In this document: piece after piece, positions 42,807 through 63,820 of the stretch | Layout: each line of letters begins with the position of its first letter | Position numbering within the stretch: the stretch's first letter is position 1 | From: Urechis unicinctus | Taxonomy: Eukaryota; Annelida; Polychaeta; Xenopneusta; Urechidae | Direction: 5' to 3' | DNA: 64,000 nucleotides | NCBI GenBank assembly: GCA_034190875.2 | Contig: CM067349.1 | Location: forward strand, 34,927,071-34,991,070 | Program-made: the position numbers and the translations under genes | The notes under the pieces: model-generated | The model's input: only the letters and a program-made list of their open reading frames with translations | Told to the model about the DNA's origin: nothing | Database searches by the model: none

Positions 42807-44806
42807 CTACCTGTCATATTCTTCAGCTTCTTCCAATGTCGTAAAAAACGGTGCATGCAAAGTCTCAGGTAGTGCCAACAGCATGCAGCCAGAGAGCAAA
42901 GCAATACAGCCGCACAGTAATGATGGCAGCGGCTCCCACACATTGCCCTACACAGGTCATCACTCTTAAATGAGAATCCTATATCGTTTTGCCCAAACGC
43001 AGTTAAAGGGATATCAATGCGCTCATATTTGCCAGTAATGGAACAGTTTAAGTGCATTGTGTATAACAAGCAATAATTTTACCAAGGGTCCCCCAAAGTA
43101 GGGTGCAAGCATTCCAGATATTCGCGCGCTCATAGACGATGACCCAACTCCGAAATTTCTCACTTCTGTCGGAAATATCTCAGACGAATAGAGGTAGATA
43201 CCATTGAAACCAAGAGTAACAAATCCTTTTGCAACAGCAGCGAACACAGAATGCGCAATTCCAACATCTGTCAATAAAACTCAGATCAATTATTTGGCTT
43301 TAACCTCACTGTAAAATATAAAAGGAAATAAGAACTATGTAGATACAGTCATTGAAAAGTAACCTTTAGCAATCATAATGGCTGATACTACTGATGCGAT
43401 GCCAGACAATATCATGGCACCACTACACGTGATTCGACGGCCAGTCACTTCCCAGCCCATAAGGCAGATGCATAGAACCGTAAATGGGATCTCTACAAAT
43501 CCGCTGATAAACGTATTCACGTAAATGTTCCCGAACAATCGTCCCGTATTCAGCGATAGCGCATAGTACATGAGACCACAGGAGAACCTGGAATAGTTGA
43601 AAGAACATATCAGTATCATCGATGATCTGTAATTGCGATGGAGAGTCAGATATATGATGGGTTAAGACAGTATGACCAGTAGAAGTAGATGATTATGGTG
43701 CGCATGCGCATTCGTGGAAACACGAAAAGTTTGGTGCATGTCCTCTGTTGTCCCAAGTCAGTCTGTGCACACATAGCAAATTAACAACACTGATGTTACG
43801 CATGATATTGCCCGTTGCTTGTCATATACTTTTTTAATCAAAACATTATCGTCGCGTTTTGGGTTAACGATATCATCAATCGGACCATGTACAGCATATG
43901 AGCATCGAATCCATTGGGGAGTTGCTTCCGATTCACAGATGCAATCTTCCTCAAAATGGTGTCAAGTTCCTTATACTTTCGCTTCTGCAGCAGCCAATAT
44001 GGCGTTTCATCTAAAAACCTACAGCAAATGCACTCCTTGAACATGCTTTATTGTCGTTCGTTGACCTTGTATAATTTTGGGATCAGACTGAAATAGCACA
44101 CACATAATTTTCTATGCAAAAAAGCGTAATTGCTAGACTGGATAATATGCTACATATATTTACCACCAGTAGATTAAGAACATAACCGTCGGGGCTGCCA
44201 TCGTATACTGAAGTTTAATGTCATCCCGAATAAAGAAGGCAGTAAAGGGCCAGATCATGAAATTGACCCCACTGCACATGTGTATGAAAAGCCCAAGCAT
44301 ACGTCTCCATTTCACGGTGACGAATTCCATTACTGTCCAAGTGGAAACAATTATAAGCAGCAAGAAGTAGGCCATCAATTCATCGTACAGAGGTGAACAA
44401 ACGTCTCGATTTAAATAGTTTATGTTCGGACTCACGAAGTACAAAGCCAGTAATGTAAGCCCCCATATTCCCAACTCCAACGCAGAATTTGAAGATGCAA
44501 GTAGCGATGATATTAATCGGAATCGGGGCAATCAGTAAGGTGGCAACCTTCAACACCAGACTAAAATACAATGCCTTTTTGCGGCCAAATCTAGAAAGAA
44601 AACGATGAATATTGAATTCGTCTACGGCAAATATTGCACATTCTGATATTCTTACTATAGCCTATGCATGCTACTTACCTGTCCGATAGGTACCCAAAAA
44701 TTACAGAGCCAACCAGAATACCAAACATCAACGAAGATGTAACAAGTGACCCCATCCAGCTTTTGTCACACACGAGGTTAAACTGGAATCAGAACATGCT
44801 GTTTAG

Positions 44807-44863
<57 letters not shown>

Positions 44864-45757
44864 TATATATATATATATATATATATCTAGAGATATATAT
44901 ATATATATATATAGAGATAGAGAGATAGAGATATATATATATATATCTCTCCCTCTCTATATCTCCTCTCTATATATATCTACGTATATATATCTATGTA
45001 TATATATAGATATATGTATATATGTCTATATGTATCTAGATACATATATATATAGATAGATATATCTCTATCTCCTCTATATATATATATATATCTCTCT
45101 CTCTATATATCTAGAGAGATCTAGAGATCTATATCTCTATCTCTCTATCTATCTCTATCTCTCTCTATATCTCTCTATCTATCTCTATCTATCTCTATCT
45201 CTCTATATCTATATATATATATCTATATATATATATCTATATACATGCCACGTATTTATATGTATTTTAATTGTGTACATTCTCCGACTTACTCTGCTGG
45301 TAAGTGTATTGATGAATTGGCTCGTGTCATACATCCAGCTGGAACAGGGCGTTTTTGCTGTTTCCTTTGTCATATTAGACTTGTTCCTTGCCAGTAATTC
45401 GTCGAGAGCAGCAAAAGAAGAGTAATTCAGTTGAAACATCATGCAGCTGCTGTGTTCCCCATTGTTTTCTCGTGGTATCGCTACGGCCTTCTGCTGTTCA
45501 TATGACAAATTCTGTAGCTCGTCTACGTAGCACCAATGATTTTGGTGCCCGGCCACAAAATTCATGCCTACCGATTCTGCTGAAAATAAAGAAACTGCAG
45601 CCACTAGGATAAAGACGATCGATTGATATCGACCAAAGTTCCCCAACTCCATGTATATATCTTCTATGTTCATACGGCGGTTGGTTTCATCTTGTGGCTT
45701 TTCTAACAACTTGTCAATGTTGGTCTCGGTAGCGTCATCGTTGACTATACCAGTCAT
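42807..45757 (-). CDS. SLC22-family organic ion transporter, copy B (nine exons, complete)
   Basis: Predicted plasma-membrane carrier with 12 TM segments; the substrate cannot be told from sequence. Exons: 45757-45293, 44782-44679, 44590-44436, 44332-44164, 44018-43886, 43762-43677, 43587-43364, 43267-43083, 42947-42807. All junctions are GT-AG and phases match (1662 nt, 553 aa, a usual length for the family). Exon 1 has a GNFGRYQ amphipathic start, TM1 and a large loop with Cys and several N-glycosylation sequons. Exon 2 begins FNLVCD. The exon 2/3 junction restores SDRFGRKK. Exon 4 ends YWW. Exons 5-6 form the intracellular loop with LDETPYWLL. Exon 7 carries TM7-9, exon 8 has [13 protein letters not shown], and exon 9 has LPETLHAP and the acidic tail. 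The ATG at 45757 is chosen; the frame upstream has only non-ATG codons. The exon 5 donor (GTCCGA) is weak. A Polinton sits 171 bp upstream of the start. Confidence 0.92.
44809..45245. repeat. TA/TCTA microsatellite in intron 1 of SLC22 copy B
   Basis: An array of TA, TAGA and TCTC repeats that fills most of the 510-bp first intron. It explains why this intron is far longer than the other seven (88-145 bp). Confidence 0.95.
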
Positions 45758-45922: not shown

Positions 45923-45928
45923 GCCCGC
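45923..45928. repeat. Target site duplication, left
   Basis: GCCCGC directly abuts the AGTAGTG terminus of the element and is repeated exactly at 61352-61357. A 6-bp duplication is typical of Polinton integration. Confidence 0.95.
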
Positions 45929-46390
45929 AGTAGTGTAAGAGGTACCCCTACTTACCTCGTTTTTGACGTCGAACGATGGACGAAGTGGATTGCGCAATAT
46001 ATTTTTCGCTGACGATCGCTTCCGGATTCGGTGCGATATTTTGATGACATCATTATATTTTTGGAAAGTGATTTCACCATCTGTTCTGTCCTTCAAATCT
46101 TTGCGACTTTGTTTTTTCGACCTCATGGAGGCGCGCTATTTTGGATGAGGTCATTCTATTTTTGGAAAGTGATTTCACAATTTTCGTCGGATATGTCGTC
46201 ATAGTTTGCTGAGCTAAGCTAAGTGATGGGATAGAGGGTGTATATAAAACGGGAGAGTGTCTCAGTTCTGCTTTCAGTTATAATCATGGCTGAGAAGAGA
46301 CAGCTAGAAGTTTTCAATGATGTGTGCAAACGCAGTAGACGGATGAGCGACGCGGACTTGTTAAAAGCCGTGGCGCAAATTGAAATGGAG
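45929..46390 (+). repeat. Left terminal inverted repeat (about 462 bp)
   Basis: Pairs with 60353-61351. The first 142 bp are identical and about 6 mismatches occur in the first 230 bp. It contains two copies of a TTTTGGAAAGTGATTTCAC motif (about 46059 and 46157), a TATA box, and the first 35 codons of the left-arm gene. It lacks about 537 bp found in the right repeat. Confidence 0.92.
46241..46249 (+). promoter_or_regulatory. TATA box of left-arm gene 1, inside the TIR
   Basis: TATATAAAA lies 37 bp before the ATG at 46286. The same box is kept in the right repeat at 60494-60502. Confidence 0.75.
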
Positions 46391-47116
46391 GAAGTGAAAC
46401 CACTATACACACGATACTTTGCACAGTATTCGATAGTGGTTTGGAATAAAGATGTAGTGTTTTTGAAAAACAATTTCAAGAAATGTCACATAGAGTTGGG
46501 GATGAACTGTGTATTGGACTGTGGTTACGAAATAGCTGCTGTCACAGAAACAATGAAACAGTTAGAAGCGGGAGAGGAGAGTCATGTCGAGGTCTCTATT
46601 GGTGCAGACGTCACAATGAGTGTTCGATACCCGATCCCTATGGTGCTGATAAAGAAGGGCCAGGTGACAATGCAAATGGACAGTTACTTGTGGTATATGT
46701 TTGTAGAAGCGTGGGAGGAGTTGAAACAGCTCTACAGAACCCACGTGGTGAGAGCGAAATTAATGGAGGAATATCTGATGGTGGTATACACAGACACGCT
46801 TGTCGATTTAATCGAAGCTCTAATACCAGAAAAATGCCATGGCTGTTAGATCGACCACCCGAGTCAGCGACAGCATAATCTTTGTTTGATGGCCGAACCT
46901 GAAGAACAAGTTCGGATGTGTATGGCGGATGCTCTCGAGCGTGTTGACGAACACTATGTATCAAGTTTATGGGAATTAAGTATAGGTTTAATTGACCCCT
47001 GTCCCTCGTGGATGGAACGTAGCAAATGGTTGTGTGTGGACTATAGGAAATATTGGTTGGAGTCGGTGAAATCAGATATTGAAATACGTGTAATTAACAG
47101 ATTGTGTAATAAATGA
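46286..47116 (+). pseudogene. Polinton left-arm protein 1, unknown function, internal TAG
   Basis: One frame from ATG 46286 to TGA 47114-47116 (277 codons), interrupted by TAG at 46847-46849, just after a CHGC motif. The ATG is preferred over in-frame upstream codons because it directly follows the TATA box. The first 35 codons lie in the terminal repeat and recur in the right-end gene. The middle (YPIPMVLIKKGQVTMQMDSY) and the C-terminal part after the stop (ALERVDEHYVSSLW) resemble the second left-arm gene at 48063-48855, so the two are paralogues. No domain is recognised; the paired Cys residues suggest a possible metal site (inference). The AATAAA at 47108-47113 overlaps the stop codon. 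Confidence 0.7.
47108..47113 (+). terminator. Poly(A) signal of left-arm gene 1
   Basis: AATAAA directly abuts the TGA stop, a compact arrangement also seen for the ATPase and protease genes of this element. Confidence 0.6.
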
Positions 47117-47169
47117 GTGAAAATACAGGCCTGTGTTTGTTTCTTTTAATTATTATTTGGAATGTATGT

Positions 47170-47176
47170 TATAAAG
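47170..47176 (+). promoter_or_regulatory. TATA-like box before the 77-aa gene
   Basis: TATAAAG, 58 bp upstream of the ATG at 47234. Confidence 0.45.
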
Positions 47177-47233
47177 AGTTCAAATTTGGTGGGTGGTCAT
47201 TTATGGCTAAGATAGTCAGAGAGTAACATCAAC

Positions 47234-47467
47234 ATGACGGATGCGTATAGCAGGTGGTCTGTTTTAAAAGACAAGTTACAGATGCATGCACAACTAACTG
47301 GAGAACTGAGAGACAATAAGATCTCTAGACAAATTAGTATAAATCAACAGCGCTTGATGGAGTATGGTTACGATTTTGATACGGCTCTTAGTAAAGCGAT
47401 CGAAGCTAGAGAGTGTTTAATGGATCGTCAGTTAACTTCGTTCGTGTCTGAAAATGAGGTAGATTAA
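47234..47467 (+). CDS. Small Polinton protein, 77 aa, unknown
   Basis: Open from ATG 47234 to TAA 47465-47467 with no lesion. Polar and probably helical: charged residues are spread along it (DKLQMHAQL, RQISINQQRLMEYG, ECLMDRQL), with no signal peptide and no membrane segment. It has its own TATA-like box upstream and is spaced from both neighbours, so it is probably a separate transcript. A 26-nt internal stretch (47326-47351) recurs exactly inside a polymerase intron at 56627-56652. I do not recognise the family. Confidence 0.6.
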   Translation: MTDAYSRWSVLKDKLQMHAQLTGELRDNKISRQISINQQRLMEYGYDFDTALSKAIEARECLMDRQLTSFVSENEVD

Positions 47468-47548
47468 TGTAATTATAAATATCTGATTATAAATATTGGT
47501 TAACAACAAGTTTACTGGTAGTAGAGTTTGAATCTTTAAAGCGACGAC

Positions 47549-47866
47549 ATGGATACTTGTGTAGAATGTGACGAATGTCAGAGAGTCGCTGAGACTCAAC
47601 AACCATATAGACCCAAGTCACCTGCTCAGGGTAAACACAGAATCCTGAGGTTACGGCGTTGTCCTCTGTGTCAATGTGGGTTTGTAACGAAGGCGCTTTT
47701 GACCCAACACTTGAAATATCACTGTAATTATAAGCTCTACATATACAATCGAAACTTCAAAAACAACAGGCACAACAAAGCAGAGGAAGGTTGTGACGTA
47801 ATCGGAAAGCTTAACTTCCACGTTCGAAGAACCCCACAACCCCGGTGTGCGTGTGATACAACGTGA
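47549..47866 (+). CDS. C2H2 zinc-finger protein, 105 aa
   Basis: Open throughout. One classical C2H2 finger in the middle (about residues 38-58): CPLC, then F, L and H...H with C-x2-C-x12-H-x3-H spacing. An extra Cys pair near the N-terminus (CVECDEC) may bind metal. The rest is basic (Arg/Lys/His). It may act as a DNA- or RNA-binding regulator of element or host transcription (inference). It sits between the 77-aa gene and a repeated CACGTG block. Confidence 0.7.
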   Translation: MDTCVECDECQRVAETQQPYRPKSPAQGKHRILRLRRCPLCQCGFVTKALLTQHLKYHCNYKLYIYNRNFKNNRHNKAEEGCDVIGKLNFHVRRTPQPRCACDTT

Positions 47867-47889
47867 TTTACCGGATCTGAAATTAATTT

Positions 47890-48021
47890 GTCACGTGATC
47901 ATGATAAACCGCTGACTACAGCTAAATCAATTCGTCACGTGATCATGAAAAAAGCGCTGACATCAGCTTAATTAAGTCGACACGTTATCATGAAAAACCC
48001 CTTACATTAGCTCGATCAGGG
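47890..48021 (+). promoter_or_regulatory. Three 45-bp repeats with CACGTG/ATCATGA core
   Basis: Units start at 47890, 47934 and 47979. The first two carry GTCACGTGATCATGA and the third the variant GACACGTTATCATGA. Each is followed by a GCTGAC..CAGCT-type segment (weaker in the third). CACGTG is an E-box palindrome. A TATA-like GATAAATAA (48022-48030) and the start codon at 48063 follow, so this looks like an upstream activating array. Confidence 0.6.
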
Positions 48022-48062
48022 GATAAATAAGAGAACACGGACAGCTTTTTGTTTCATTCAGG

Positions 48063-48855
48063 ATGGCAGAGGAGAACGGCGAGGAGTGTGATTACATTGA
48101 TGGACCGTTGTATACCAGTCGTCGTAGTGGTCACTTTCTAATTTCACAGTGGTGTAGTAACCCAGACCCAATGATTTACACATTCGCGATCGATGGAGCG
48201 GACATCAAATAAAATTACCCTCAAATGCCTTTCTCTGAAGCGGGACGGCTCTTACATCACTCACCTTATCGTTGATTGACGCGGAAGCTGGCCAATCGGA
48301 CGTTGATACGGAAGAAACCATTTGTGACGATGTGATTGGTCGAGTGAAAGCCCCATTCCCCTATATTGAAATTACCCGTGAAAGCGTGACCATGTGCTTT
48401 GATAGTTTCAATTGGTGGCAGCTCATAAAAGCTTACCAAGACCTATCACACGCCCACAAAAGATGGATGACCAAGGAATGTCGCCTGATGGGTGGGATAT
48501 GATAATTAGCCTTTATAGTGGTTTGATGAAGCCATTGTTATCTGACATAGCTCAAGAACCATGCGTCGTGTGTGGAACGGGCGTATGTCAAGCCGAGAAC
48601 CAACAAAAGATGTATTCACATTGCGTTGGAAGAGCCTTGGATAAGGTGGACGAACATCACGTCACTTTATTATGGTGCTTGTTGTGTGAGCAACACAATT
48701 CGACTGAACTGTGTCTTTGGCTCTCTAGAGAGTATCGACGTACCATGTTAGGTTTTTGTGTGACCACCGAACACTGGTCTAAAGTCTTAATGGGGGAACC
48801 TTATGACTGTAAATATAATAAAATTATTAGACACATGAATATATATGATTGGTGA
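48063..48855 (+). pseudogene. Polinton left-arm protein 2, paralogue of protein 1, multiple lesions
   Basis: Begins MAEENGEECDY at ATG 48063. The frame stops at TAA 48210-48212, continues in other frames (48272-48502) and shifts again near 48490 to the frame ending at 48855. The segments aligning to protein 1 are PFPYIEITRESVTMCFDSF (middle) and ALDKVDEHHVTLLW (C-terminal), with a CVVCGTGVC cluster between them where protein 1 has CHGC. At least three disruptions. The poly(A) signal at 48859-48864 follows directly. Function unknown. Confidence 0.65.
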
Positions 48856-48858
48856 TTG

Positions 48859-48864
48859 AATAAA
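48859..48864 (+). terminator. Poly(A) signal of left-arm gene 2
   Basis: AATAAA, 4 bp after the stop codon. Confidence 0.55.
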
Positions 48865-48935
48865 AAGTGATGATATACTTTAATTGAATTTCTTTTTGAG
48901 TTCTACTTATCACGACACTATCTACCTATCCTATC

Positions 48936-48944
48936 TATAAAAAG
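48936..48944 (+). promoter_or_regulatory. TATA box of the ATPase gene
   Basis: TATAAAAAG, 35 bp upstream of the ATG at 48979, the same spacing as in the TIR promoter. Confidence 0.65.
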
Positions 48945-48978
48945 AGTGGGGAACTGTGAAGGATAACTCAGTATAAGA

Positions 48979-49577
48979 ATGGATCGAGCCTTAAAACACC
49001 CCTTTAGTTGCGTGATAGCTGGTCCGAGCGGCTGTGGAAAAACTTACTTTGTGAGTGAGTTAATCAAAGGTAGTCACATTGAGCCACCACCCGACCGAAT
49101 CGTGTGGTGTTTCGGAGAGTGGCAAACAATGTACACTCAACTACCCCACGGGAATTTGTAGAGGGATTGAATTTTGAGACAGATCCTCAACAAAGAACTT
49201 TGTTGATCATCGATGATTTGATGGAAGAAACTGACGAACGCGTCACTCGCCTATTCACCAAAGGGAGTCACCATGGCAATCTTAGCGTGTTGTATTTAGT
49301 ACAAAATTTATTTGGAAAGAATAAAGAACATCGAACAATCAGTTTGAACGCTCATTATTTAGTGGTATTTAAGAACCCTCGGGACGCTTCACAAATCATG
49401 CATTTAGCCAAACAAATGTACCCGCGAAACATCAAGTATGTACAAGAAGCCTTTTCGGATGCTACTTCGCAACCTCACGGTTATTTGTTTATCGATTTGA
49501 AACAGGCAACACCAGATCACTTACGGCTACGAACTGACATACTACGACCCAATCAAGTTGTATACCTACAGAAATAA
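48979..49577 (+). pseudogene. Polinton genome-packaging ATPase (FtsK/HerA type), one frameshift
   Basis: Known role of the family: ATP-driven translocation of the element's DNA into capsids. Walker A GPSGCGKT is near residue 16 and Walker B LLIIDDL near residue 75, followed by a sensor-like YLVQN segment. Length about 199 codons, near the usual 200-250. The first frame stops at 49161, while the homologous downstream part (from about EFVEGLNF) is open in another frame to TAA 49577, so a single indel lies near 49140-49155, just after the FGEWQ stretch. AATAAA overlaps the stop. Confidence 0.88.
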
Positions 49578-49626
49578 ATTCCGTCGATCGTCGGACGACC
49601 GCCATTCTTATTGTTAGACATAGATC

Positions 49627-49959
49627 ATGGCAGAGCGTCTCAGAAAACACGCTGATACATTACGAGTGATGGCTAAAGCCAAACCCCCTGTCAATAGGGC
49701 TTTGATTCACACGGCTGACAAAGAATTGATAAATTGTCTATGTGAATGTGCACTCAATGTTTTAAAAGGAAACGTATCCTTGACTTCAGTTCAGAAGCGT
49801 AAATTAGCCCGATACAAACAAGGTCTGCGCACTTTGATCTCACCTAAAACTAACGTCAAGAAAAAGAAAAGAGTATTACAAACCGGTGGTTTTCTCCCGG
49901 CGTTATTATGACCTATTTTAGGTATCGCTGGTCCGTTGTTAGGCAAACTATTGGGCTAA
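49627..49959 (+). pseudogene. Small basic Polinton virion-like protein, TGA before the hydrophobic tail
   Basis: From ATG 49627 the frame is open to TGA 49909-49911, then again to TAA 49957-49959. The body is basic and helical (RALIHTADKELIN, LTSVQKRKLARYK), with a Lys-rich linker (NVKKKKRVL) and GGFLPALL. The tail beyond the stop is Gly/Leu/Ile-rich and hydrophobic. From general knowledge, proteins of this layout lie between ATPase and integrase in many Polinton and adintovirus genomes and are suspected to be core or membrane-active virion proteins. The stop removes the hydrophobic end. Confidence 0.6.
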
Positions 49960-49963
49960 AATT

Positions 49964-50593
49964 ATGGCTAAGAAAATGATGTTGGTTGATCCCCGGGTAC
50001 TGTCAAGTGGGCGTTACGATCAAGCTCCCACTGTCGACGTGTTATCCAACTTGGATGTGGAGATGAGGGATGTCCTGAATCGTAGTGATTTATCGGAGGA
50101 GGCTAAAGTAGAATCTTATAACCAAATTTTAACAAAACACCACGAATATTAATGCCAGCACAGAACCCCGACACCTCACACAGCCTTAGCTAATACCCCG
50201 CCCCACACACCCAAACAAGAAGATGTGTCTATTGCGGAAGTTGTAGAAACCATCCCTGATAAATTTCAGAAAAAAGGGCGTTTGCTATTAGAACGCCTTC
50301 GAAAAAACCCAGACGTGAGTTGGAATGAACGAGGGCAATTAACGATTAAAGGACAAGCCGTTAGTGGGACTAACGTGACGGATTTGGTTAACGATGTGTT
50401 GAGACGACGTAAACACTTAGAACCAGAGGGTTGGAAAAGATTTGCTGAAGCGTTGCGAGACTCCAACATTCCTCAAGATTTAATAGGTCACCCCGATCGA
50501 TGGAACTATATCCGACAGGGTGCGATGCAAATAGATAAAAGACCTGGTGAGGAGGAGCCTGTAACACAAAATTGGACGTCATGGAGAAGTTAA
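49964..50593 (+). pseudogene. Conserved Polinton ORF (MAKKM..DPR type), internal TAA
   Basis: Frame from ATG 49964 to TAA 50593 (210 codons), interrupted by TAA at 50150-50152. The N-terminal part has MAKKMMLVDPRVL and a NRSDLSEEAKVESYNQIL helix. The C-terminal part has LLLERLRKNPDVSWNERG and LVNDVLRRRKHLEPEGW, patterns I recognise from Polinton-like elements but with no known activity. It starts 5 bp after the previous gene and overlaps the integrase start by 13 bp, so the three are tightly packed. Confidence 0.65.
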
Positions 50594-51626
50594 GTGTGTA
50601 TTTCGACCCTGAGGCACCGGTCGCGTATGGAGGGGTGCAGCCATTGGTTAGAGCTACGAAACTCAAAACAAATGCAGTCAGGCAATGGTTGGGTGAGCAA
50701 GATGCCTATACATTACATAAACCGATCCGTCGTCGATTTCGAAGACGACGCGTCATAGTCGGGGGGATTGACCATCAATGGCAAGCCGATTTAGTGGACA
50801 TAGCTCGCTTAGCCAAACAGAACCAAGACATGAAATTTCTCTTGACCTGTATCGATGTATTCTCGAAATATGCGTGGGTGATACCACTAAAAAATAAAAC
50901 GGGTGACAGTTTGATTCGAGCCTTTGAGAGTATATTAAAACAAGGGCAGAAGCCCCTGTGTTTACAGACCGATAAGGGTTGAGAATTTATCAACCATAAA
51001 TTTCAGACATTTCTTAAGCAGCAGGGGATTTGCTTTTTTACCACCCACAACGAAGAAACCAAAGCTAGCATAGTCGAGCGGTTTAATCGTACGTTAAAAA
51101 CTAAAATGTGGCGTTATTTTACCAAACACAATACCAGTGTTTATCTACCGGTTCTGGCTTTGCTGGTGAAAGGATACAACGTCAGTTATTATCGCAGCAT
51201 CAAGCGCCCCCGATATCAATCTCGGTGCGTAATCAAGAAGACACGTGGATGACATTATACGGGGAACGCTCTGATGGGGTTAAACGACCATGGTATGATA
51301 TCGGGGATCGTGTCCGCATCAGTCAAGCACTGGGTAAATTTAAAAAGGGTTACACTTCCAATTGGAGTGAGGAGTTGTTTCGGGTGGAGAACGTTCACTT
51401 AGGCTCCCCTAATGTGTATACGATAAAGGATGATAATGACGAAGTGTTAGAGGGAACATTTTACGCGGAAGAATTACAGAAAGTGAATGACATAGCATTG
51501 TATAGGGTTGAAAAAATGATCAAAGAACATAAACGGAAAGGACAAAAACAATACTTTGTCAAGTGGTTTGGCTACCCTGCCAGTTTTAATAGTTGGGTCA
51601 GTGGTGTGGAGCTGTATAAAAACTGA
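50581..51626 (+). pseudogene. Retroviral-type integrase with chromodomain, TGA in the core and a frameshift
   Basis: Family role: inserts element DNA with a 6-bp target duplication. ATG 50581 is used (the frame opens 9 bp earlier with a TTG). DDE catalytic core: first Asp in WQADLVD, second Asp in QTDKG, Glu in SIVERFNRTLK. A TGA (50980-50982) lies right after TDKG, between the second Asp and the Glu. A second break is a frame change in a C run near 51207-51213; downstream residues continue in the other frame. The C-terminus (about 51500-51610) is a chromodomain: YRVEKMI, then YFVKWFGYP and SWV. Chromodomains of such integrases bind histone marks and guide target choice. Confidence 0.9.
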
Positions 51627-51651
51627 GATTTGGAACAGAAGCGTCATTAGG

Positions 51652-51878
51652 ATGGAAGATCAGAGAAGTGATCGGGTGTGGACCATATTTGGTCGGGAAA
51701 TTCCGAAAGCCGAAATCGTGTTTTTCACACAACCCTCATTTTATATACCGTAATCATCGTCAGCATCTACAATCTATCGGCGGGTAAAGGAGATAGTAAT
51801 TTGTGGACTGCTCTGTTAAGCAGTAGCTTAGGGTACATTCTTCCCAACACTACTATGAAACATAAAGCGACGTCATGA
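51652..51878 (+). pseudogene. Small Polinton membrane protein, frameshifted
   Basis: Begins MEDQRSDRVW at ATG 51652. The first frame ends at 51753, while the homologous second half (a hydrophobic LILYTVIIVSIYNL segment, then DSNLWTALLSSSLGYILPN) is open in another frame to TGA 51878. The shift lies between about 51700 and 51745. One predicted TM helix. The stop overlaps the next gene's start (ATGA, 51875-51878). Similar short membrane proteins sit beside the penton gene in other Polintons; function unknown. Confidence 0.55.
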
Positions 51879-52654
51879 GTTTCTTTCTGCCTTCCAACAG
51901 TTCAATGAATTATCACCCCAACAACACGCTGACACGTTACTTTACTCAATTGCCTAAACCCATACAATTAAAAGGTAATTGGGAGGTGGGATTAGCAGAA
52001 ATTCAGTACCCTGTTTCCTGGTACAACATCGGGGACAATGTCGGTTTTGTCATAGTGGATGAGCGAGCTGGATACCATACGATAGACAGACACTTGGAAG
52101 GGGATCCTATGGTCGAGTCCTTGGTCGTTCGCCTGACCCCCGGTTCCTACAGTGCTGAACAATTGATAGACAGGATCAATATGCACATCCGCAAATCGCA
52201 TCTCAGAGGCGTGGTTCGATTTCAATTCAATTCCCACTCACAGACCGTGAATGTAAAAATAACTGATCCCAAACTTCAAGTTGTCATGACCGAAGGTCAT
52301 CGTCAAATATTGAGGTGTGAGGAATGTCTTTCGCTTTACGATTCTTAAACTGATTACAAGCCTAATGTATTTCGAGGGTTGTACGCACTGTACGTTTATT
52401 GTAGTATAATTGAATCACAAGTGGTTGGTGACACGATGGCCTCCTTGTTACGCACAGTTCCTGTGGACTACGACCGGGTGCACAAAATGGTGACCCAGAC
52501 ATACGAACAGATATTTTATTACTCTGTGGGCACCAAAACCTTTTGTACCATAGAAATTGATATAAGAGACGACACGGGTCAGTCCGTGACATTCGAAGAC
52601 GGACATGTGATGGTGACTTTACATTTCCGTGAAACCAAGAAGAACTTAATTTGA
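51875..52654 (+). pseudogene. Minor capsid (penton-like) protein, copy 1, internal TAA
   Basis: 260 codons from ATG 51875 to TGA 52654, broken by an in-frame TAA at 52346-52348. N-terminal signature SNSSMNYHPNNTLTRY and WEVGLAEIQYP, typical of Polinton penton-type single jelly-roll proteins that form the capsid vertices. The part after the stop keeps LYALYVYC, VVGD and IEIDIRDDTG. It is directly followed by a second, diverged copy (52674-53483). Confidence 0.85.
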
Positions 52655-52673
52655 GTCTCATGGCATCACCATC

Positions 52674-53483
52674 ATGAGTTTCTTTCTGACCCTACCTTCC
52701 AACAGTTCAATGAATTATCACCCCAACAACACGTTGACACGTTATTTAACTCGACTCCCCAAAGCTTTACAGTTGGAAGGGGCTTGGGAAGTGGGATTAG
52801 CGGAAATTCAGTACCCTTACACGTGGTACAATGTTACTGAGGACGAGGGGTTGGTCGTCATCGATCGCGTGGCTGGTGCGTTCAATCTCCCCCTGGATAT
52901 CTGTTGCAGTGAGCGATATTACATTGTGAGTGAATTTGCAGAGGCCCGTCCCAAATATTTTCACATTACCCCTGGTTTTTATACGGCCGGATCGTTGATA
53001 GAAGCCTTTGCAGCCAAGTTACAGGAGCAAAATGAGGAGCGAGTGCGTCTCACCTACAATCGATAACGACAGACAGCAACTATGACCCTAGACAATGAAT
53101 CAGTTGTAGTTTACATGGACGAGGGGTTGCGTCAAAGACTCGGTTTTGAAATGGGGATTTGTGAGAACAGTCAAGTCGGTCAGCACATTGTTGACCCTGA
53201 TCGAGGCTTGTACGGACTCTATGTCTATTGTAATCTCATCGAAGCTCAGGTGGTAGGAGACACCGTGGTTCCCCTTCTGCGTATTATTCCAATCGATCAC
53301 GATCGTCGCGGGCAGTTGATCAACTCCACGTATAAAAAGATATTTTATTATCCGATAGCCACCAAGACTTTTTCTACTATAGAAATCAATATAAGAGATG
53401 ACACGGGTCGACCCATTCCATTTGAATCTGGTAAAGTGACAGTGACGTTACATTTCCGTAAAATCAAGAAAGCTATATTTTGA
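52674..53483 (+). pseudogene. Minor capsid (penton-like) protein, copy 2, internal TAA
   Basis: 270 codons with an in-frame TAA at 53064-53066. Nearly the same start as copy 1 (SNSSMNYHPNNTLTRY) and the same WEVGLAEIQYP, LYVYC, VVGD and IEINIRDDTG blocks, but a more divergent middle (AGAFNLPLDICCSER) with an extra segment. 19 bp separate it from copy 1. It is a tandem gene duplication rather than an assembly repeat, since divergence is clear through the centre. Confidence 0.85.
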
Positions 53484-53488
53484 AAACC

Positions 53489-53893
53489 ATGGCTGATATT
53501 TACACCCCGTATTACCTGAACCAAGCAGGTGGAGGGCTCCCCGTGTTTTCCGGTGCCAGAAGTCAGCGTGGACATGGCCTTGGTAATGTGGTTGGTGGTC
53601 TGGCTAAAATGGTGTTACCGCTGGTTTGAAAAGTTTTACCTGTCGTTAAAAAACACGCCTTGAAAACAGGAGTGAGGGTGGTTGGAGATTTGTTGGGAGG
53701 GAAGTCTCTGAAACAGTCGGCTAAGAAACGATTGTTACAAACCGGAGAGGAAGTGTTTGATCAAATAGTTCAACCCAAACAACCGCGTCGCCAACCACCA
53801 TTCTCTATAAAACGACTCGCACGAGGTAGGAACAGTAGTTCACGCCGTCACCGTGGAACAACTCGGAGGTTGGCAAAAGATATTTTCGGTTAG
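53489..53893 (+). pseudogene. pVI-like minor virion protein, internal TGA
   Basis: 135 codons from ATG 53489 to TAG 53891-53893 with an in-frame TGA at 53627-53629. The N-terminal third has GARSQRGHGLGNVVGGL, then a hydrophobic MVLPLV stretch; after the stop come a VVGDLLGGKSLKQSAKKR helix and a very basic tail (RRHRGTTRRLAKD). The layout (QRGHG-Gly motif, amphipathic segment, Arg-rich end) matches small virion proteins encoded just before the major capsid gene in Polintons. The role is inferred. Confidence 0.6.
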
Positions 53894-53896
53894 ATC

Positions 53897-55177
53897 ATGG
53901 CACTGGTACACCCCCAATCTTGTCCCTGTGTCAAAAGTGAATTAGACCTATTTTCGATTCCCCCAACTCAAAGCAGTGTCGATCATGGATCGTGGATCGA
54001 ATTCCATCCGGTAGCTGCTTTAGGTTCGTGTCCAGTCGAATTCTACATCAGTGGGTCGGGTGATGATTATATCGATCTGAACGACACTTATTTACAAGTG
54101 AATGCCAAAGTGTTGAAAAAGGATGGGGAGGTCTTGGCGGCTGATAGTGCTGTAGCACCCTTTAACCTCTGGTTACACTGACTCTTTTCCCAAGTTGATG
54201 TCTCTCTCAACGAAAAACTTGTGTCCTCCTCGACAAACACATACCCGTATCTCGCTTATATGGAAACGCTATTGAGCTATGGTTCAGAAGCCAAAAATTG
54301 TCAGTTAACAGCTAGTTTATGGTACAAAGACACCCCAAAACACATGGACGCCATGGGTGGTACTCACAACCGGGGGATGATAGCTAGAAAGGAACGAGCT
54401 CAAGAGAGTCGCATTGTGGATATGATGGGCAAATTACATTTAGATTTATTTAGTCAAGAACGCTATTTATTAAACGGCGTAGATTTGAAGTTGCGATTAG
54501 TACGCAGCGGTGACAGCTTTGCCCTTATGGCCAATCCTGCAGATGGATTTGCCCCTAAAATAGTTCTGCAATCCGTGACCTTATTCGTACGCAAAATAAA
54601 GTTGAACCCCACCGTGCAACTAGCTCACATTAAGGCTTTAGAACGAAGCCCAGCTAAATACCCCATAAGACGCATAGAAACCAAAGTGTTTTCTGCATCC
54701 CAAGGAGCTATGACGATCAATCAAGAAAATTTATTTTTGGGTCAGTTACCCAAACGAATTGTAGTCGGAAGTGTTGATAATAGGGCGTTCAATGGTGATT
54801 ACACTCAGAACCCCTTCAACTTTAAGCATAACGACCTCACATATTTAGCTCTGTACGTTGACGGGCAACAAGTGCCCGCAAAACCATTACAGCCCGATTT
54901 TAATCACCATATATACACCCGCAGTTATGCTAATTTATTTATTAGCACTGGACAACTCTATCAAGACCAAGGCAATGCCATAAGTTGGAGTGATTATCCC
55001 AACGGCTATACACTATTCGCTTTTGATCTGACCTCCGACCTGGGTGATAGCGGCACTCATTTTAATTTGTTGAAACAAGGAAACGTGCGCTTGGAAATGC
55101 GTTTTGGTACGGCCCTAGAACGTACCATTAATGTCATTGTGTATGCCGAATTTGAAAATATGATTCAAATTGACTGA
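53897..55177 (+). pseudogene. Major capsid protein (double jelly-roll), internal TGA
   Basis: 427 codons from ATG 53897 to TGA 55177, interrupted by TGA at 54179-54181 after FNLWLH. Blocks typical of Polinton hexon-like proteins: HGSWIEFHPV, DDYIDLNDTYL, then VDVSLNEKLVSSSTNTYPY right after the stop, RYLLNGVDLKLRLVR, YTQNPFNFKHNDLTYLALYVDG and a C-terminal GNVRLEMRFG. Except for the one stop, the frame is clean over its full length. It starts 3 bp after the previous stop codon. Confidence 0.92.
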
Positions 55178-55212
55178 AACCGTAACGTTCTGTTTGATTA
55201 CGCTGCCTAACA

Positions 55213-55656
55213 ATGGATACCAGGCAATTACACAAGCTCTTACAAAAAGACGCTTTCACTCGAGCTACTGTGCGCGGAGTGTTTGCGCGGAATAAATTAC
55301 CCCGCCATGTCAACTACCCCAGCGGTTTCGTTTGTAATACGGATCCAGCTTCCAAAAAAGGCAAACACTGGATTGCTATTTTCATTGATCATAATGAACG
55401 AGGCGAATATTTTGATTCTTACGGACTACCTCCTATTCATAACGTATTTGTGAAGTTCTTGACCAAGCCTTGTGTGACCTGGTCTTATAATACAAAGCCA
55501 TTACAAGACTTTAATTCCAATACTTGTGGACTTTATTGCTTGTATTATTTAAAGAGACGATGTCGTGGAATAAGTTTCAACCAATTGCTAGCTGTATTTA
55601 CCGACGATTATTCAACCAACGATGAGCTGGTGACATGTTTAATTCAAGGCAAATAA
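55213..55656 (+). CDS. Adenain-type cysteine protease (Ulp1-like), intact
   Basis: 147 aa with no lesion. Family role: maturation cleavage of virion proteins. Catalytic His in GKHWIAIF (near residue 56), acidic partner in EYFDSYG, Gln in LQDFNSN and Cys in NTCGLYC (near residue 114). The order His-Asp-Gln-Cys and the length fit Polinton/adenovirus proteases. It is the last rightward gene; AATAAA (55652-55657) overlaps its stop, and the polymerase gene ends 163 bp away on the other strand. Confidence 0.92.
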   Translation: MDTRQLHKLLQKDAFTRATVRGVFARNKLPRHVNYPSGFVCNTDPASKKGKHWIAIFIDHNERGEYFDSYGLPPIHNVFVKFLTKPCVTWSYNTKPLQDFNSNTCGLYCLYYLKRRCRGISFNQLLAVFTDDYSTNDELVTCLIQGK

Positions 55657-55818
55657 ACAACGCGTGTTGAAAATGTACGACGTTTTTATTCTTAGTTTCT
55701 CTCACAGCCTTTAAACATCAATTTCTTACAGAGCGCACATCCATCGATTACATAACACCTTCACTTCAATTTTTTACATAATAACACATATCAATTTCTT
55801 AAATAGCATATTAATGTA

Positions 55819-58800
55819 TCACACATCTAAAGGTTTAGTGCTTACACCATCTGCATTCACAATTCTCTTGGGGTAAAAATAACTTAATCCATCTCTAATT
55901 TGCGTATACGAATACATTGTGTTATTGTTAACGCAAAAGCCATGGTTCACACCGTGACCCGATTTTTGTTCTCTCAGCACATTCATATATTTCTCCTTGT
56001 TCAGGTCATTTTGACGCTTATTGAGTCCTTTACACGAGGCTTTATCCGTAGTTCCATAACAGTAATAGGTTTTACTGCACAGTCCGATAAAACCATCTCC
56101 ACTCCACTCCTCTTTAAATAACCCGGGGTACGTTTATCATATTTTTGGCGGGTCACACAGCACGGTTGAGGTACCCACGGGGTTCTGTTCGTTTTACACT
56201 GTATAAAGTCGTTGTTGTGATCATCACACGCTACAGCTGGCAACCACTGAGGGTATTCTCGGTAAAATTGTTCTTTCATGTTGGGTTTGATGACATCTGT
56301 TAGATGACTACTACTAAGAGCGATATAACTACTATCTGTGTCCATCTGTACATAGGCAAAATCAGATCTCGCGACATACTTGTCAATAAAATCATAGTAA
56401 AATTCAAGCATTCTTAATTTGGCGTATTGATAAACAAAATAGCCTATTTGTTGGGGTAAGTCGAGATCAATGGTGGTTTTGGCCATGTCGAATTCAAATA
56501 GGTTGGGGGTTAATTCGTTCAAGGCTAAGAATCTGTTGTTGTTGATCAATTTCTGACCCTCTCGGTAGTTGGCGTATCTGACATCACGGTGTTTAGTTTT
56601 ATCCGTGATGCATTTACCTACAAACATAGACAAATTAGTATAAATCAACAGCACTTGACGGGTTTTTTTTTTTTTTAATCATAAATTTGAAATATATTTG
56701 AAAATAACAATTAAATCAATATATTTTACAATAATACATTTTAGTATATTTACCATAGGCCGAATTTCCAAGTACCTTAAAAGTTTCGGCTATAACGGGC
56801 TGACTTGGGTCGACATCACCCCCACGTCTACACACAAACAAGAACATTATCAAAAATAAAATTCAACGCTTGAAAGAGTATATCACATATAACTATAAGA
56901 GTATATCATATATATTCGTGCATACCTGGCGTCTGATACGGTCTCAGCAAATCGTTTGAAACAGGCTGTGGGTTCATACTCCAGTGTTTGGTATATCTTT
57001 GTGATCACCAGGCCATGTTCCAAGTACCATTTCAGTAGTGGGCTAGCAAGCAATATTTTCACACCTTTGTAGCTCCCTATCAACATCCGCCATTCCGTCT
57101 ATTTGAAAATAAATAATAAAAATCGTTATGTCATCATAATGATCGCAACAAAATACATTATGATCCCACGCCCCTTGTCACCTTGTGTACTTACTTTCAT
57201 AATGTCCCGTTGTTCAGCATAGTCATTTCACTAAAATAGTCTTTAAGGGTTTCTGGTACGTGTATATCTACTTCAGCCATTCCAAAAAAGGTTCCGTCAC
57301 GTATATTGGCTATGAGCTGTTTTTCCGTCAAACCGGTTTGTGGTGGTTGAGGTCGACTGTACGTGAACGCTTTGATCTGAGGGTCTGTTTTTCGATTTTC
57401 CGTCCATTCACATTCCCACACAGCTACGACATCATAACGTAATCCTCTCAAATACTGGGTATTTCTTTCTGTTTCGGTATGTAAATCACTCATTAGTTTT
57501 CCACTGATGGGGCTATGGGTCAATTTCAGACACGGACAACCATGCCATACACATCAGTGAAACTGATATACTGTTTGCGTTTCTTTGCACCAACCGTCTA
57601 CGGGTAATCGCCGGGCGCCAATTCGTTTTTCCCCTCTGTTTAGACGATGTTGTATTTGATTTTGTGAGCTGTGTGCTATCCAAGCCAACCATTCATCCGC
57701 TACACCACGTTTTCGGGTCTGAATTGGTTTAAACTCAGGCCCGTGACGTCGGGTCGGAAAGTTGGCTGGCATGGGTTGACATAAAGCCCACAGATACAAG
57801 GCATTCGCATCATAACCTACGATTCCTTCACACAACTTCGCTTCATTTCCGTTCTGTTCACGCCTGAAGTAAGTTTTTCCTTTTTCGTGGTAACGATGAA
57901 AGATGATTGAGGGTCCGCCCACTATTCCATTTTTAATCAACCAATTGATGTCGTTGTTCTTTTCGTCAGGTAAGGTAAAATAATCTTCCAAGTCTTGAAA
58001 TAAATATTGCATGGTTAATCCGGGCACTGATATTCCATCCTTCAACATATCAATACCTCTCTCACTGTAAAAACTACTCTGTTTCTCTATGGCTTCCAGA
58101 AACGGTTCGACATCTAAATTGTTGTAATATATCAAAAAGTCTTTAAAAGTCTGCATATGACCTGCTTGCCACGCTTCTTGACATTCAGCGTATTGGTCAG
58201 CTGTAATGTTTTCTTGTTTTAACGTACTGTAAAAAGCTGCATGGGGTGGTAATTCTGTGCTGTTCAAACGATGAGTGTCACCCATTCATACGGGAAATAT
58301 CTCTTTTTCTGTTCGCATTGAAAGGCTCGTAGGTATTTGTCGTATGTATATCCAGGTGCAATAAAGTTGGTGATATCCAAAAACCGTACATGGTCCGTTT
58401 CAATGCACATAAATGAGTTGTTTCGTTTGATGGTATACTTGATCGATGAATGTTCTTGCAGGTAAGTTGTCAACGGTATTTTCACAACGTTGAGGTCATA
58501 ATTCGATGAGTTGAATCCGACTAACGGTAATACATGTAAATAGTTGTCGAATTTGTTCTGTAATTTCTGCAATGGAAGTTCTCCCTTAGCGACCGGGTCC
58601 CGTTGATGCGTGACATTGATTTTATCTTCTAACTGGGTTAGGGCATCTTCGTATTGAGCAAGCATCAGTAGATAGGCGGCGTTTGATATCTCCTCTATAT
58701 ACATCATCATCCTGTCAATCAATGTTTGTGCGTTTCCTTCCGTTACAAAGCATTTTGGTTCTGTATAATCAGGTACATTGCTGCATACACTCACTGATAA

Positions 58801-59979
58801 CGGTACGTGTTTTTGGTCCCAGGTGACTTTGGGTGAATTGATGGGCAGGTTGTCTTCTCCAAAATAACTTTCAAAATCATAGGTGGCTCTGTAAGGGTAA
58901 ATACTGTCTACTATTTCCATTCCTTTGTCCCTTAACGCTTCAAAGATAGTGGGTGGTAGATGAAAAACACCGCCTGGGTACTTGTATTTCGTTTCCACAG
59001 TACATTTGTTTTCGTGGCGATGTAGTTTTTTCTCACTTTTCCACAGCTTCTGACAGGTACCACAAATATATGATTTGCTATAAAGGTCAAAGTTTTTTAT
59101 GTAACTAAAGTGATTTTCGTGCAGGTTCAATTTCAAGGTCGAGGCGAATTTTGTACGCGTTCGCTTGACCAAAGTAGCTACCTGAAACACATATAACAAA
59201 ACGATCACATCTCATATTTCCATTTCGATATCAAATGATTACATCGTTTATGTTGTTACTTCTGTTTAATCACTACAAGACACACTTACTTGATTCTCGT
59301 CTAGCGCATACACAGTGATATTTACTTCGAATTGTTTTGCTAGTCTTTCGACGTCTTCAAGAGGTACACCCGCAAATGTTTTTTTCTTTTGTTTGGGGTA
59401 AGCAGTCTTTAACAATGTTTTTGCTGCGTTCTCTAGACTCCTGATCTTCGCTCCTCTGTGTAAGGCCAGTGCCCTGAAAAAGCACAATCGGTCTTGATAC
59501 GGTTTACCTGTGGTTTTCTTTCGGTCTAACAAGTTGATGGCTCTGTTTGTTTTCAGGTGTTCCGGTATAACAGGTGGTGGGTAGCCGATCACGTGATCTT
59601 CGATTGGGTTCACAAGGATGGTCAAATTAGTCACTTCCTCTACACTCCATTTCGAATCCGGTCGTTGGTTCTGGGCGTAGGTTAAAATGTCTGTTTGTGT
59701 TATTGCATCTATAGCCCTCTCAAAATCATCGGCATTCCGTACGACTATAGGGTTTGGTAGCATACGATGGTTATTGACGGACGAATGAAAGTACCGCAAT
59801 TCATCTGATTCTTTGTGACGTAATAAGAATCCATAACTGCCGTTGATTTTAAAGGCTGAATCGCATTCCTCAAATATATAGTGGTTGAGGTTGGGCAAAT
59901 CTTCTGATAAACTATAATTGTAAACAGTTTGCAGGCTTCCAAATCGCGTATGAGTCCGTATAGCTCTTTCATTTGCAGC
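55819..59979 (-). pseudogene. Protein-primed DNA polymerase B, spliced and broken
   Basis: Family role: replication of the element from protein-primed ends. Likely exons (minus): 59979-59290, 59181-57195, 57098-56926, 56827-56754, 56617-55819, each with GT-AG junctions. The N-terminal exon has a region typical of Polinton polymerases (DRLCFFRALALH). Exon 2 carries a zinc-like CGTCQKLW..H cluster, exonuclease motifs around YDFESYFGE and GFNSSNYDLNV, and palm motif A-like GYDANALYLWA. NSAYG spans the exon 4/5 junction, and exon 5 has the catalytic YVQMDTDSSYI. Breaks: a frame change near 58265-58275, TGA at 57554-57556, a frame change with probable small deletion near 57210-57235, and a frame change near 56120-56126. 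The 5' end may join the right-TIR exons (60457-60349 and 60253 onward), but that junction is unresolved. Confidence 0.85.
56627..56660 (+). repeat. Intronic copy of part of the 77-aa gene
   Basis: 26 nt identical to 47326-47351 (about 32 of 34 over the longer match), in the same DNA orientation, followed by a run of T. It lies within the last polymerase intron, next to its acceptor. Confidence 0.75.
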
Positions 59980-60086
59980 CTACACAGCTTCTGCCGACAT
60001 AATCATCGATAATCTGTCAATATAAATATCACCCAAAGTCATAAAGCTTTCCATTATGTCATTCCTCAATTCTACCGGTAATAGAC

Positions 60087-60457
60087 CTATCCTTTAATAG
60101 ACCTACCCTTAGCGTTGTCGACTGCAGCGCCATTTTCAGTTTGTGTTGGGGGGCTGTGTTGAGCGTTGTTTAACAAATTCAGTGCTGCATTGGCCTGATC
60201 GATTGCATACGCATCCATAGCGGCGTGTAAAATATCTTCGTGTCCCGTCAACACTAAAACACACACGCGTAACAAAAATAAATAAATAAATAAATGACGT
60301 ATACGTGGTAAATCTATAATTCAGGTATAGAAATAAAATCATACTCACTGCTTTCCATCTCGATTTGCGCCACGGCTTTTATCAAGTCCGCATCGCTTAT
60401 CAGTCTAATGCGTTTGCACACATCATTGAAAGCTTCTAGCTGTCTCTTCTCAGCCAT
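60087..60457 (-). CDS. Right-end TIR gene: shared leader exon spliced to a different exon
   Basis: Exon 1 (60457-60349) starts with the MAEKRQLEAFNDVCKR leader of the TIR and ends at a consensus donor GTGAGT. A 95-bp intron follows, with acceptor GTTTTAG before 60253. Exon 2 stays in frame (LTGHEDILHAAMDAYAI, ANAALNLLNNAQ) and is open to a stop at 60087, or may splice on to the polymerase exon at 59979. Without splicing, exon 1 would stop shortly after the donor. The TATA box at 60494-60502 drives it. Whether this is a separate small protein or the 5' end of the polymerase gene is not settled. Confidence 0.55.
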
Positions 60458-61351
60458 GGTTATAACTGAACGCAGAACTGAGACACTCTCCCGTTTTATA
60501 TACACCCTCTATCCCATCACTTAGCTTAGCTCAGCAAACTATGACAACATATCCGACGAAAACTGTGAAATCACTTTCCAAAAATAGAATGACCTCATCC
60601 AAATAGCGCCCAGCTCAATGTATTGACATGAGGTCGCAAAACCAAGGTCGCAAAGATTTCAAGGACGGAAAATATTCGAGCAGATGATGAAATCAGTTTC
60701 CAAAAATAGAATGATGTCACCACAATATCTGAGGTGAATGCGAAATCGACTGACAGCAGTGTTGACAATGATATACGCTTGAGTATAATAAAACTATCGA
60801 AAATGACCTCACCCAAATACCGCCCATTCATCACATCAGGTCGAAGGTCAACAACCTTCCTAAGGACATAGCCCCAAATGAACTCACTCGAATACCGTAC
60901 ATTGCGTGAGCCTGCTAAGGTCACCAATTCAATATATCACCACATGTCATGGGATAAAGGAAGTTAATAGCAACAAATCACCTCGTAAACATCGTCTTCA
61001 TATCTGAACAGATGGTGAATACTCCACTAACATTAACACTATCCTTCACTTCTCTTTCAACACCATTACCGCTAATTGACTTTTAATACCCATTTACAAA
61101 CTCCCTCTCAATAAAACTGCGAAAAATGACCTCATCCAAAATAGCGCGCCTCCATGAGGTCGCAAAACCAAGGTCGCAAAGATTTCAAGGACGGAACAGA
61201 TGGTGAAATCACTTTCCAAAAATAGAATGATGTCATCAAAATATCGCACCGAATCCGGAAGCGATCGTCAGCGAAAAATATATTGCGCAATCCACTTCGT
61301 CCATCGTTCGACGTCAAAAACGAGGTAAGTAGGGGTACCTCTTACACTACT
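60353..61351 (-). repeat. Right terminal inverted repeat (about 999 bp)
   Basis: Inverted partner of 45929-46390 but with about 537 extra bp (roughly 60607-61122). The extra part holds further decayed copies of the TIR-internal unit (ATGAGGTCGCAAAACCAAGG and AATGACCTCA(C/T)CCAAAT motifs at about 60627, 60802 and 61130-61175). Confidence 0.9.
60494..60502 (-). promoter_or_regulatory. TATA box in the right TIR
   Basis: TATATAAAA on the minus strand, 37 bp before the ATG at 60457; mirror of the left box. Confidence 0.75.
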
Positions 61352-61357
61352 GCCCGC
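61352..61357. repeat. Target site duplication, right
   Basis: GCCCGC directly after the ...CACTACT terminus, identical to 45923-45928. Confidence 0.95.
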
Positions 61358-62451
61358 ATCATGGCTTGAATAATATGGCGACAGCAGCAAAGCACCGCCT
61401 TGCTGTTCCGGCCATGTTGAACAACGTTTTTGTGCCAATAAATTGCAAGTGATGCATCGAATTCTGTTCACAAGCATCACCATCGGACGTAAGCTTACTC
61501 GTACATAGCTCCTGTCGAAAGGCAATATAAATATATACCGTTCTGCTCCAATATTTTAGTCGCACATTACAACATGCGTTTGACTATATCGCTGAATTTG
61601 GCATCTAGCAAAAACATTAACCAAGAGCCTGTAAAAAAATGTCATGTCACACCAAAAGCTTACCACCGATCGATGCGATAATTGAAGAAATGCCAGCTAT
61701 ATATCATTTTCGACTATCAATTTTTCACATATCAGTTTGCGCAAAACCTTGAGATCTTTGGATTAAGTAGAGCCCTGTGTAACTGTAGGGTATCAACGAT
61801 ATTATTATAAATATGCTGAAACTCTGACATTTTGTGTGCCTTTCTTTTCTTCCCTAACGGCTCTACCTTACCAGTTGTAAATTGGTCTTTAAATGCATCT
61901 TTTTACTGGTGCGGTACATTCAAACTAAAAGCGTCACGAGCCCAATAAACTTTGGTGACGTCAAATATAAGGTTAGAGCACGAGGAGGACCAGGTGTTCC
62001 CGTTATGTGGAACCGCGCCAAAAACGCTTTTTGGAAACCTGTTCGGTAATTATTTTCTTTCGAGCCCTGGAAGTCTGGTAGACTCCATCTCGTTATGGGC
62101 GAGCCAAAATATTAATTCACCAAAACGTTTGTCATTCGCGGATCTATTGACATAACAGCTGTCACCGTTACGCGGTCAAGCGCCCTGATGAGACGAGTCC
62201 ATATAACCAGGTTCTGCATCGCTCCCCGCGAGCTAGAACGAATTCCCTGTGGGTTACGTTATGATAACATCCCTGATGGTATGGCTTTAACGTGTGCGGT
62301 AAGAGTAGACGCTATGATTTTGCTAAGCACTCACCCACTGTTCTGCCTGGATATTTCCGCTAAACTAGGAAATAATAATGTCAATAGGCAAACGACCACA
62401 TGCTGCAGATATAACGAATAATGCCCAGTAATTTATCTGAAGCCGTCCATA
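61358..62451. other. Host flank to the right of the Polinton; no gene supported
   Basis: Before insertion this DNA would have adjoined the 5' flank of SLC22 copy B, so it may contain the native promoter or first untranslated exon of that gene (inference). No convincing coding exon. Confidence 0.45.

Positions 62452-63820
<1,369 letters not shown>

Follow-up and report, generated by a model that had tools for sequence, protein, structure and literature searches.

The window, that is, the whole 64,000-nucleotide stretch analysed here, contains an element at 45929–61351 that is flanked on both sides by the 6-bp target-site duplication GCCCGC and carries the following features at and near its two ends.

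45923..45928, target-site duplication GCCCGC, left copy (twin at 61352–61357)
45929..46389, plus strand, left terminal inverted repeat (from arm-versus-arm alignment and the target-site duplication)
46241..46249, plus strand, TATA box of the left arm (TATATAAAA), recurring as TATATAAAA or TGTATAAAA in other copies
46286..46390, plus strand, left leader of 35 codons, the long form, which is the minority form on left arms (from sequence and copy comparison)
46286..47116, plus strand, gene A, whose frame ends at 47116, with an in-frame stop at codon 188 (46847–46849) in this copy
59182..59289, minus strand, 108-bp intron of the polymerase-like gene, GTAAGT...TTTCAG (from copy comparison)
60087..60253, minus strand, exon 2 of the right gene, with the stop at its end and a predicted product of 91 aa (from sequence)
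60254..60348, minus strand, 95-bp intron of the right gene, GTGAGT...TTTTAG (from sequence and copies)
60349..60457, minus strand, exon 1 of the right gene, the leader (36 codons plus 1 nt, 109 nt; from sequence and copies)
60494..60502, minus strand, TATA box of the right arm (TATATAAAA; from sequence)
60354..61351, minus strand, right terminal inverted repeat, including about 520 extra bases of subterminal repeats (from alignment)
61352..61357, target-site duplication GCCCGC, right copy (twin at 45923–45928)

The element is a Polinton/Maverick, because genes of ATPase, integrase/chromodomain, capsid and protease type and a minus-strand polymerase-like gene lie between its repeats. These start with AGTAGTG, in keeping with the AGT start and 6-bp duplication of Polinton/Maverick ends. 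The integrase is of retroviral type (rve, E 1.7e-6, 28.7 bits, under the cut-off of 32.6; Chromo, 36.2 bits, over its cut-off), the protease of adenovirus/Ulp1 type (Peptidase_C5, 21.5 bits, cut-off 21.3), and the packaging ATPase matched Adeno_IVa2 (24.1 bits, cut-off 21), with Pox_A32 under its cut-off. The Polinton-type capsid matched 1943 proteins at E ≤ 0.001 with a best identity of 72%, one of them named F54H12.2-like, a name which we take to mark Polinton capsids. The minus-strand gene, named by motif and place, is presumably a protein-primed DNA polymerase B; its pieces matched no Pfam model and no PDB chain. It carries an early stop in this copy, and both boundaries of its intron were located in 22 of 26 right segments, the donor reading GTAAGT in 21. 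Two environmental relatives were found for one polymerase piece, and in an environmental relative the frame stops near the point matching the intron; a comparison of the capsid and one polymerase piece with viral contigs found no relative.

Vertebrate Mavericks (PMC8097293) combine modules for capsid, protease, integrase and polymerase with inverted repeats of 46–1447 bp and a 6-bp target-site duplication, and intact ones are reported to be intronless. The element described here has the capsid, protease and integrase modules, a presumed polymerase, inverted repeats and the 6-bp duplication but differs in having two conserved GT-AG introns on its right side and coding sequence in its repeat; since intronlessness is a trait of the vertebrate elements and no definition of the superfamily, its membership stands. 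Long TA-rich simple-repeat stretches lie on both flanks of the insertion (44800–45250 and 62450–62750), and the tested ORFs of the flanking host DNA had no Pfam match.

The match between the arms spans 45927–46389 and 60354–61353, the right arm being longer by about 520 bases owing to subterminal repeats inside it. Imperfect subterminal direct repeats in families of 52, 49 and 31 nt were observed in the right repeat (60354–61353), and at one locus of another end-type (L123) the outer and inner repeat parts are likewise about 1.3 kb apart. On both arms the repeat ends within coding sequence, having passed through a TATA box, an ATG (46286 on the left, 60457 on the right, each 37 nt behind the TATA box) and an open leader of 35 codons (60457–60353 on the minus strand for the right arm). 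The earlier note had described the same TATA box and 35-codon leader at both ends; they are present in this copy, where 96 of 105 leader nucleotides are identical and five amino acids differ by alignment count, and the layout is more than chance, since it recurs among copies in the same genome. The long leader shows a KR...KRSR pattern and an acidic tail; a role in nuclear localisation would be a guess based on such motifs.

Copies were searched in the host's own genome (1.19 Gb) and sampled in four ways. The first sample used the repeat plus leader as query (best 40 of 1115 candidates scored, 30 fetched), was chosen by likeness to the query and favours long leaders; it gave 23 right-type loci, all 23 with open leaders, and seven left-type loci, one of them the window itself and another, L011, frame-shifted. 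The second used gene A as query (best 40 of 547 candidates scored, 30 fetched, 29 besides the window): the leader frame was kept in 27 of 29 left arms, the exceptions being L032 and L043, and the leader was of the short type in 27 of 29, with L038 and L039 long. Oddities here were L055, which lies at a contig end, L052, which has lost the promoter part, and L040, which lacks five more codons. The third comprised 20 left arms picked by hand to span the best 150 of 1396 candidates, all 20 in frame, 19 of them short and one long. The fourth was not chosen by leader but with the intron and exon 2 as query (20 right arms taken from the best 40 of 673 candidates), and all 20 had a long-type leader and GTGAGT, with the frame kept in 16 (L087, L094 and L098 are frame-damaged and L099 has no ATG). 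The open leader frame, which the earlier note had proposed to look for in related elements, is thus mostly kept on both arms.

The two arms differ in leader length. The left and right forms are set apart by an in-frame 42 nt: a 21-codon leader was found in 51 of 54 left arms unselected for leader length (27/29 from the second sample, 5/5 from element pairs and 19/20 from the third), and the 14 codons absent from most left arms are absent from none of the 54 right-type loci. The long form is thus the rule on right arms and the short one on the left arms sampled, to which the left arm in the window is an exception, and equal 35-codon leaders on both arms are a minority state among these copies. 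Retrieval of second arms gave nothing usable in 8 of 10 and in 7 of 12 fetched stretches, one of the seven yielding the outer arm part only. Arms spaced by less than the length of an element, either as tandems or face to face, were seen at G000:C396 (L004 and L006), C1:50.185–50.196 Mb, C13:53.452–53.459 Mb and C16:35.283–35.305 Mb, as if elements had been nested or rearranged.

On the left the frame runs unspliced from the leader into gene A, as the earlier note had it. The 277 codons given there apply to this copy only if it is read past the stop at codon 188, which leaves an ORF of 187 aa; among 33 other copies, 19 are free of stops upstream of codon 277, a count that leaves out duplicates of the window and of L004/L006. 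A homologue search with gene A returned 57 candidates and none at E ≤ 0.01, there was no match to PDB at E ≤ 5, and neither gene A nor the right exons matched a Pfam family above the cut-off. A single-sequence AlphaFold model of gene A had a mean pLDDT of 35.9 and was set aside. By eye, ORFs at 48272–48855 look like the central and C-terminal regions of gene A (TM..DS..W, RALDKVDEHH), which suggests that the element holds a second, diverged version of this gene.

On the right the predicted splice joins a GTGAGT donor, read from 60348, to an acceptor AG ending at 60254, with matching phases. The sites and phase predicted in the earlier note for this junction were borne out by the sequence and are kept among the copies. 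In an alignment-based count that did not presuppose the donor, GTRAGT was present in 50 of 54 right-type loci (40 GTGAGT, 10 GTAAGT) and GTGGGT in one, three (L070, L128 and L130) having no aligned donor; the acceptor AG was present in 51 of 54, being lost in L015 and L083 and uncovered in L125. A motif-based count found 51 of the 54 loci and missed L083, L095 and L128 because its search motif contains the donor GT; in that count exon 1 was 109 nt long in 45 of 51. Intron length ranged from 87 to 99 nt (n = 49), with residues modulo 3 of 0 in 13, 1 in 11 and 2 in 25, and the intron of end-type C has a different middle and the acceptor TTTCAG instead of TTTTAG. Profile searches with exon 2 recognised no homologue. 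Exon 2 (DEDILHAAMDAYAI, 60251–60170) and the end of the leader (DADLLKAVEQI, 60400–60353) look alike by eye and may stem from an old internal duplication. The end of exon 2 overlaps the polymerase frame by about 60 nt, and this overlap (60040–60110) is near-invariant across copies, more so than either flank.

The earlier note had also called for synonymous-biased differences between the arms, and these were found: in 13 comparable of 17 within-element arm pairs there were 56 synonymous and 15 nonsynonymous differences, five of the latter from the single pair L054/L094, whose right leader is damaged. For the final 16 codons, 35 left copies out of 39 and 43 right copies out of 46 were usable, with L040, aligned across its deletion, left out. 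Here the commonest letter differs between the arms at three sites, each of them a third position with a synonymous change (codons 22, 33 and 35). A smaller sample had given five such sites, again synonymous throughout, of which two were lost in the larger one. In the smaller sample, which included L040, pN/pS was 0.06 for inter-arm comparisons, 0.28 within the left copies and 0.11 within the right ones. Variants present in at least two long leaders comprised 10 synonymous and 9 nonsynonymous changes, where about 26% synonymous would be expected, and singleton variants comprised 4 synonymous, 13 nonsynonymous and one stop, a pattern that looks as for neutral decay after insertion. Because the copies share ancestry the counts are not independent, and no P value is claimed. 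In codons 1–19, amino acids change freely between end-types.

The copies fall into four end-types: A, which includes the window; B (L103–L109, L122, L123 and L124); C (L121, L125, L126, L131 and L132, and the decayed L127, L128 and L130); and D, which is one locus only (L129). Right arms of different end-types are 53–88% identical in the 60 nt before the ATG, and TATA box, ATG, leader and donor recur nonetheless. A C element on C11 has the long leader on both arms; the C pair on C10:52.8 (L131, L132) and two B elements have a short left and a long right leader. Over the 130 nt upstream of the ATG, the two arms of eight type-A elements differ at 1–8 sites (mean 2.8%), and the inter-arm difference is 2.8% both within one element and between elements, so that recent within-element exchange is not visible at that scale. 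The arms of the C11 element, by comparison, are 99% alike over 140 nt before the ATG and 65–72% alike to arms of other types, and the element at C9:24.55 has a rare leader variant common to both arms. The leader shared on C11 and the variant shared at C9:24.55 indicate that sequence passes between arms. In seven of eight type-A pairs, left and right arms can be told apart by a T/C marker lying two bases upstream of the ATG. These comparisons point to a slow concerted evolution between arms that would fade at the start codon, direction and timing being inferred.

We consider it probable that the inverted repeat carries a promoter and a first coding stretch that is used unspliced on the left and spliced on the right, under selection and concerted evolution. 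Transcription would start from the TATA promoter of each arm and head inwards over the ATG and the opening codons. The left leader would simply form the N-terminal part of gene A; the right leader would end at a 5′ splice site and be joined over an intron of about 95 bp to a different exon, giving a protein of about 91 aa with a related N-terminal module. Selection on the protein would hold the leader in frame on both arms, and the arms would be re-homogenised over longer times, with an inner edge that stays arm-specific in its 14-codon difference and synonymous markers. The open frames, synonymous bias, splice-site conservation and recurrence in four end-types that speak for this emerge from comparison of the copies; the layout would predict that the two TATA boxes drive transcription, that the right gene is spliced in vivo, that both genes are co-expressed and that the leader acts as a shared functional module, and coordinated expression of both arms, which the earlier note had envisaged, would follow from the shared promoter sequence. 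Its idea that promoter and protein N-terminus are duplicated in the repeat is backed by copy comparison as regards the gene structure of a left unspliced and a right spliced gene, but a "common leader peptide" was overstated, because 14 codons are absent from most sampled left arms and the common part is MA(G/E)KR and the last 16 codons. The earlier interpretation is supported for gene structure and selection, and expression remains predicted.

Had the repeat instead grown into the start of one gene, the leader on the other arm would be a non-functional passenger kept similar by exchange. The leader shared by the C11 arms and the variant shared at C9:24.55 fit such passive spread, but right leaders retain their frame and canonical splice sites, inter-arm differences are mainly synonymous, and the 14 codons missing from most sampled left arms are retained on the right; we regard this explanation as improbable and rejected it. 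We likewise rejected, as very improbable indeed, conservation of the leader as DNA, in the form of a promoter-proximal or replication element with an incidental open frame. In type A, conservation of the noncoding part of the repeat equals or exceeds that of the leader (the query of both samples included that part), but the third-position bias, the in-frame 42-nt difference between arms and the conservation of the leader between end-types, despite 53–88% identity in the 60 nt upstream, all argue for coding.

An alternative that is compatible with the main reading, and that we hold to be unlikely, is that the right leader serves mainly as the first exon of the polymerase gene through an alternative acceptor skipping exon 2, the 91-aa product being secondary. 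The polymerase frame begins directly after the stop of exon 2 and hardly varies there, its apparent first ATG is absent in the end-type B loci L123 and L124, and an acceptor in the right phase can be read by eye; no clear pyrimidine tract precedes this acceptor, however, and 43 of 45 readable copies retain the stop of exon 2. No slippery site for a frameshift from exon 2 into the polymerase frame was seen on inspection by eye.

More tentatively, and with less than even confidence, the promoter-and-first-exon reading may be extended to a repeat that is a working double first exon, giving two convergent genes, and possibly the polymerase too via alternative splicing, a common N-terminus. Exchange between arms would then make the two proteins evolve in concert, and the 14-codon difference, which strips a basic KR...KRSR stretch from most left products, may tune the localisation of these products separately. 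Our confidence in both the main and this bolder reading was lowered slightly because type-A arms are as different within an element as between elements.

Two known systems resemble the arrangement in part. In maize MuDR, two convergent genes are transcribed from start points inside the terminal inverted repeats, and the part that they share is promoter and untranslated leader. The likeness would lie in convergent genes led from the repeats, with TATA boxes here in both arms, known from their sequence; MuDR differs in that its genes are not known to share a protein N-terminus and in belonging to an unrelated family. In herpes simplex virus, inverted repeats give a promoter and an untranslated first exon to two different genes, US1 and US12, in the adjoining unique sequence, whereas the shared part here encodes protein and splicing is predicted for just one arm. 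In the accessible parts of the respective sources, the 3′ part of one MuDR repeat corresponds to the mudrA transcript (PMC8224964), herpes simplex US12 has a known intron (PMC10675037), and transcripts and short ORFs are reported for transpoviron repeats (PMC11464507). The accessible parts of PMC6211774, PMC11464507 and PMC2836005 contained no case of such an arrangement, and a search of the literature on ends, promoters and introns of Polintons, Mavericks and adintoviruses, with Repbase and most subscription journals outside it, found no description. The arrangement is a new variant within Polintons.

Inverted repeats are usually regarded as ends for replication and integration. The repeats described here appear to hold a protein-coding first exon under selection at both ends, which would tie the evolution of genes to the upkeep of the ends. 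For annotation such repeats are a warning that masking of terminal repeats can delete true start exons. With many copies in one genome, they would also offer a system in which to follow how the two arms of virus-like elements evolve in concert.
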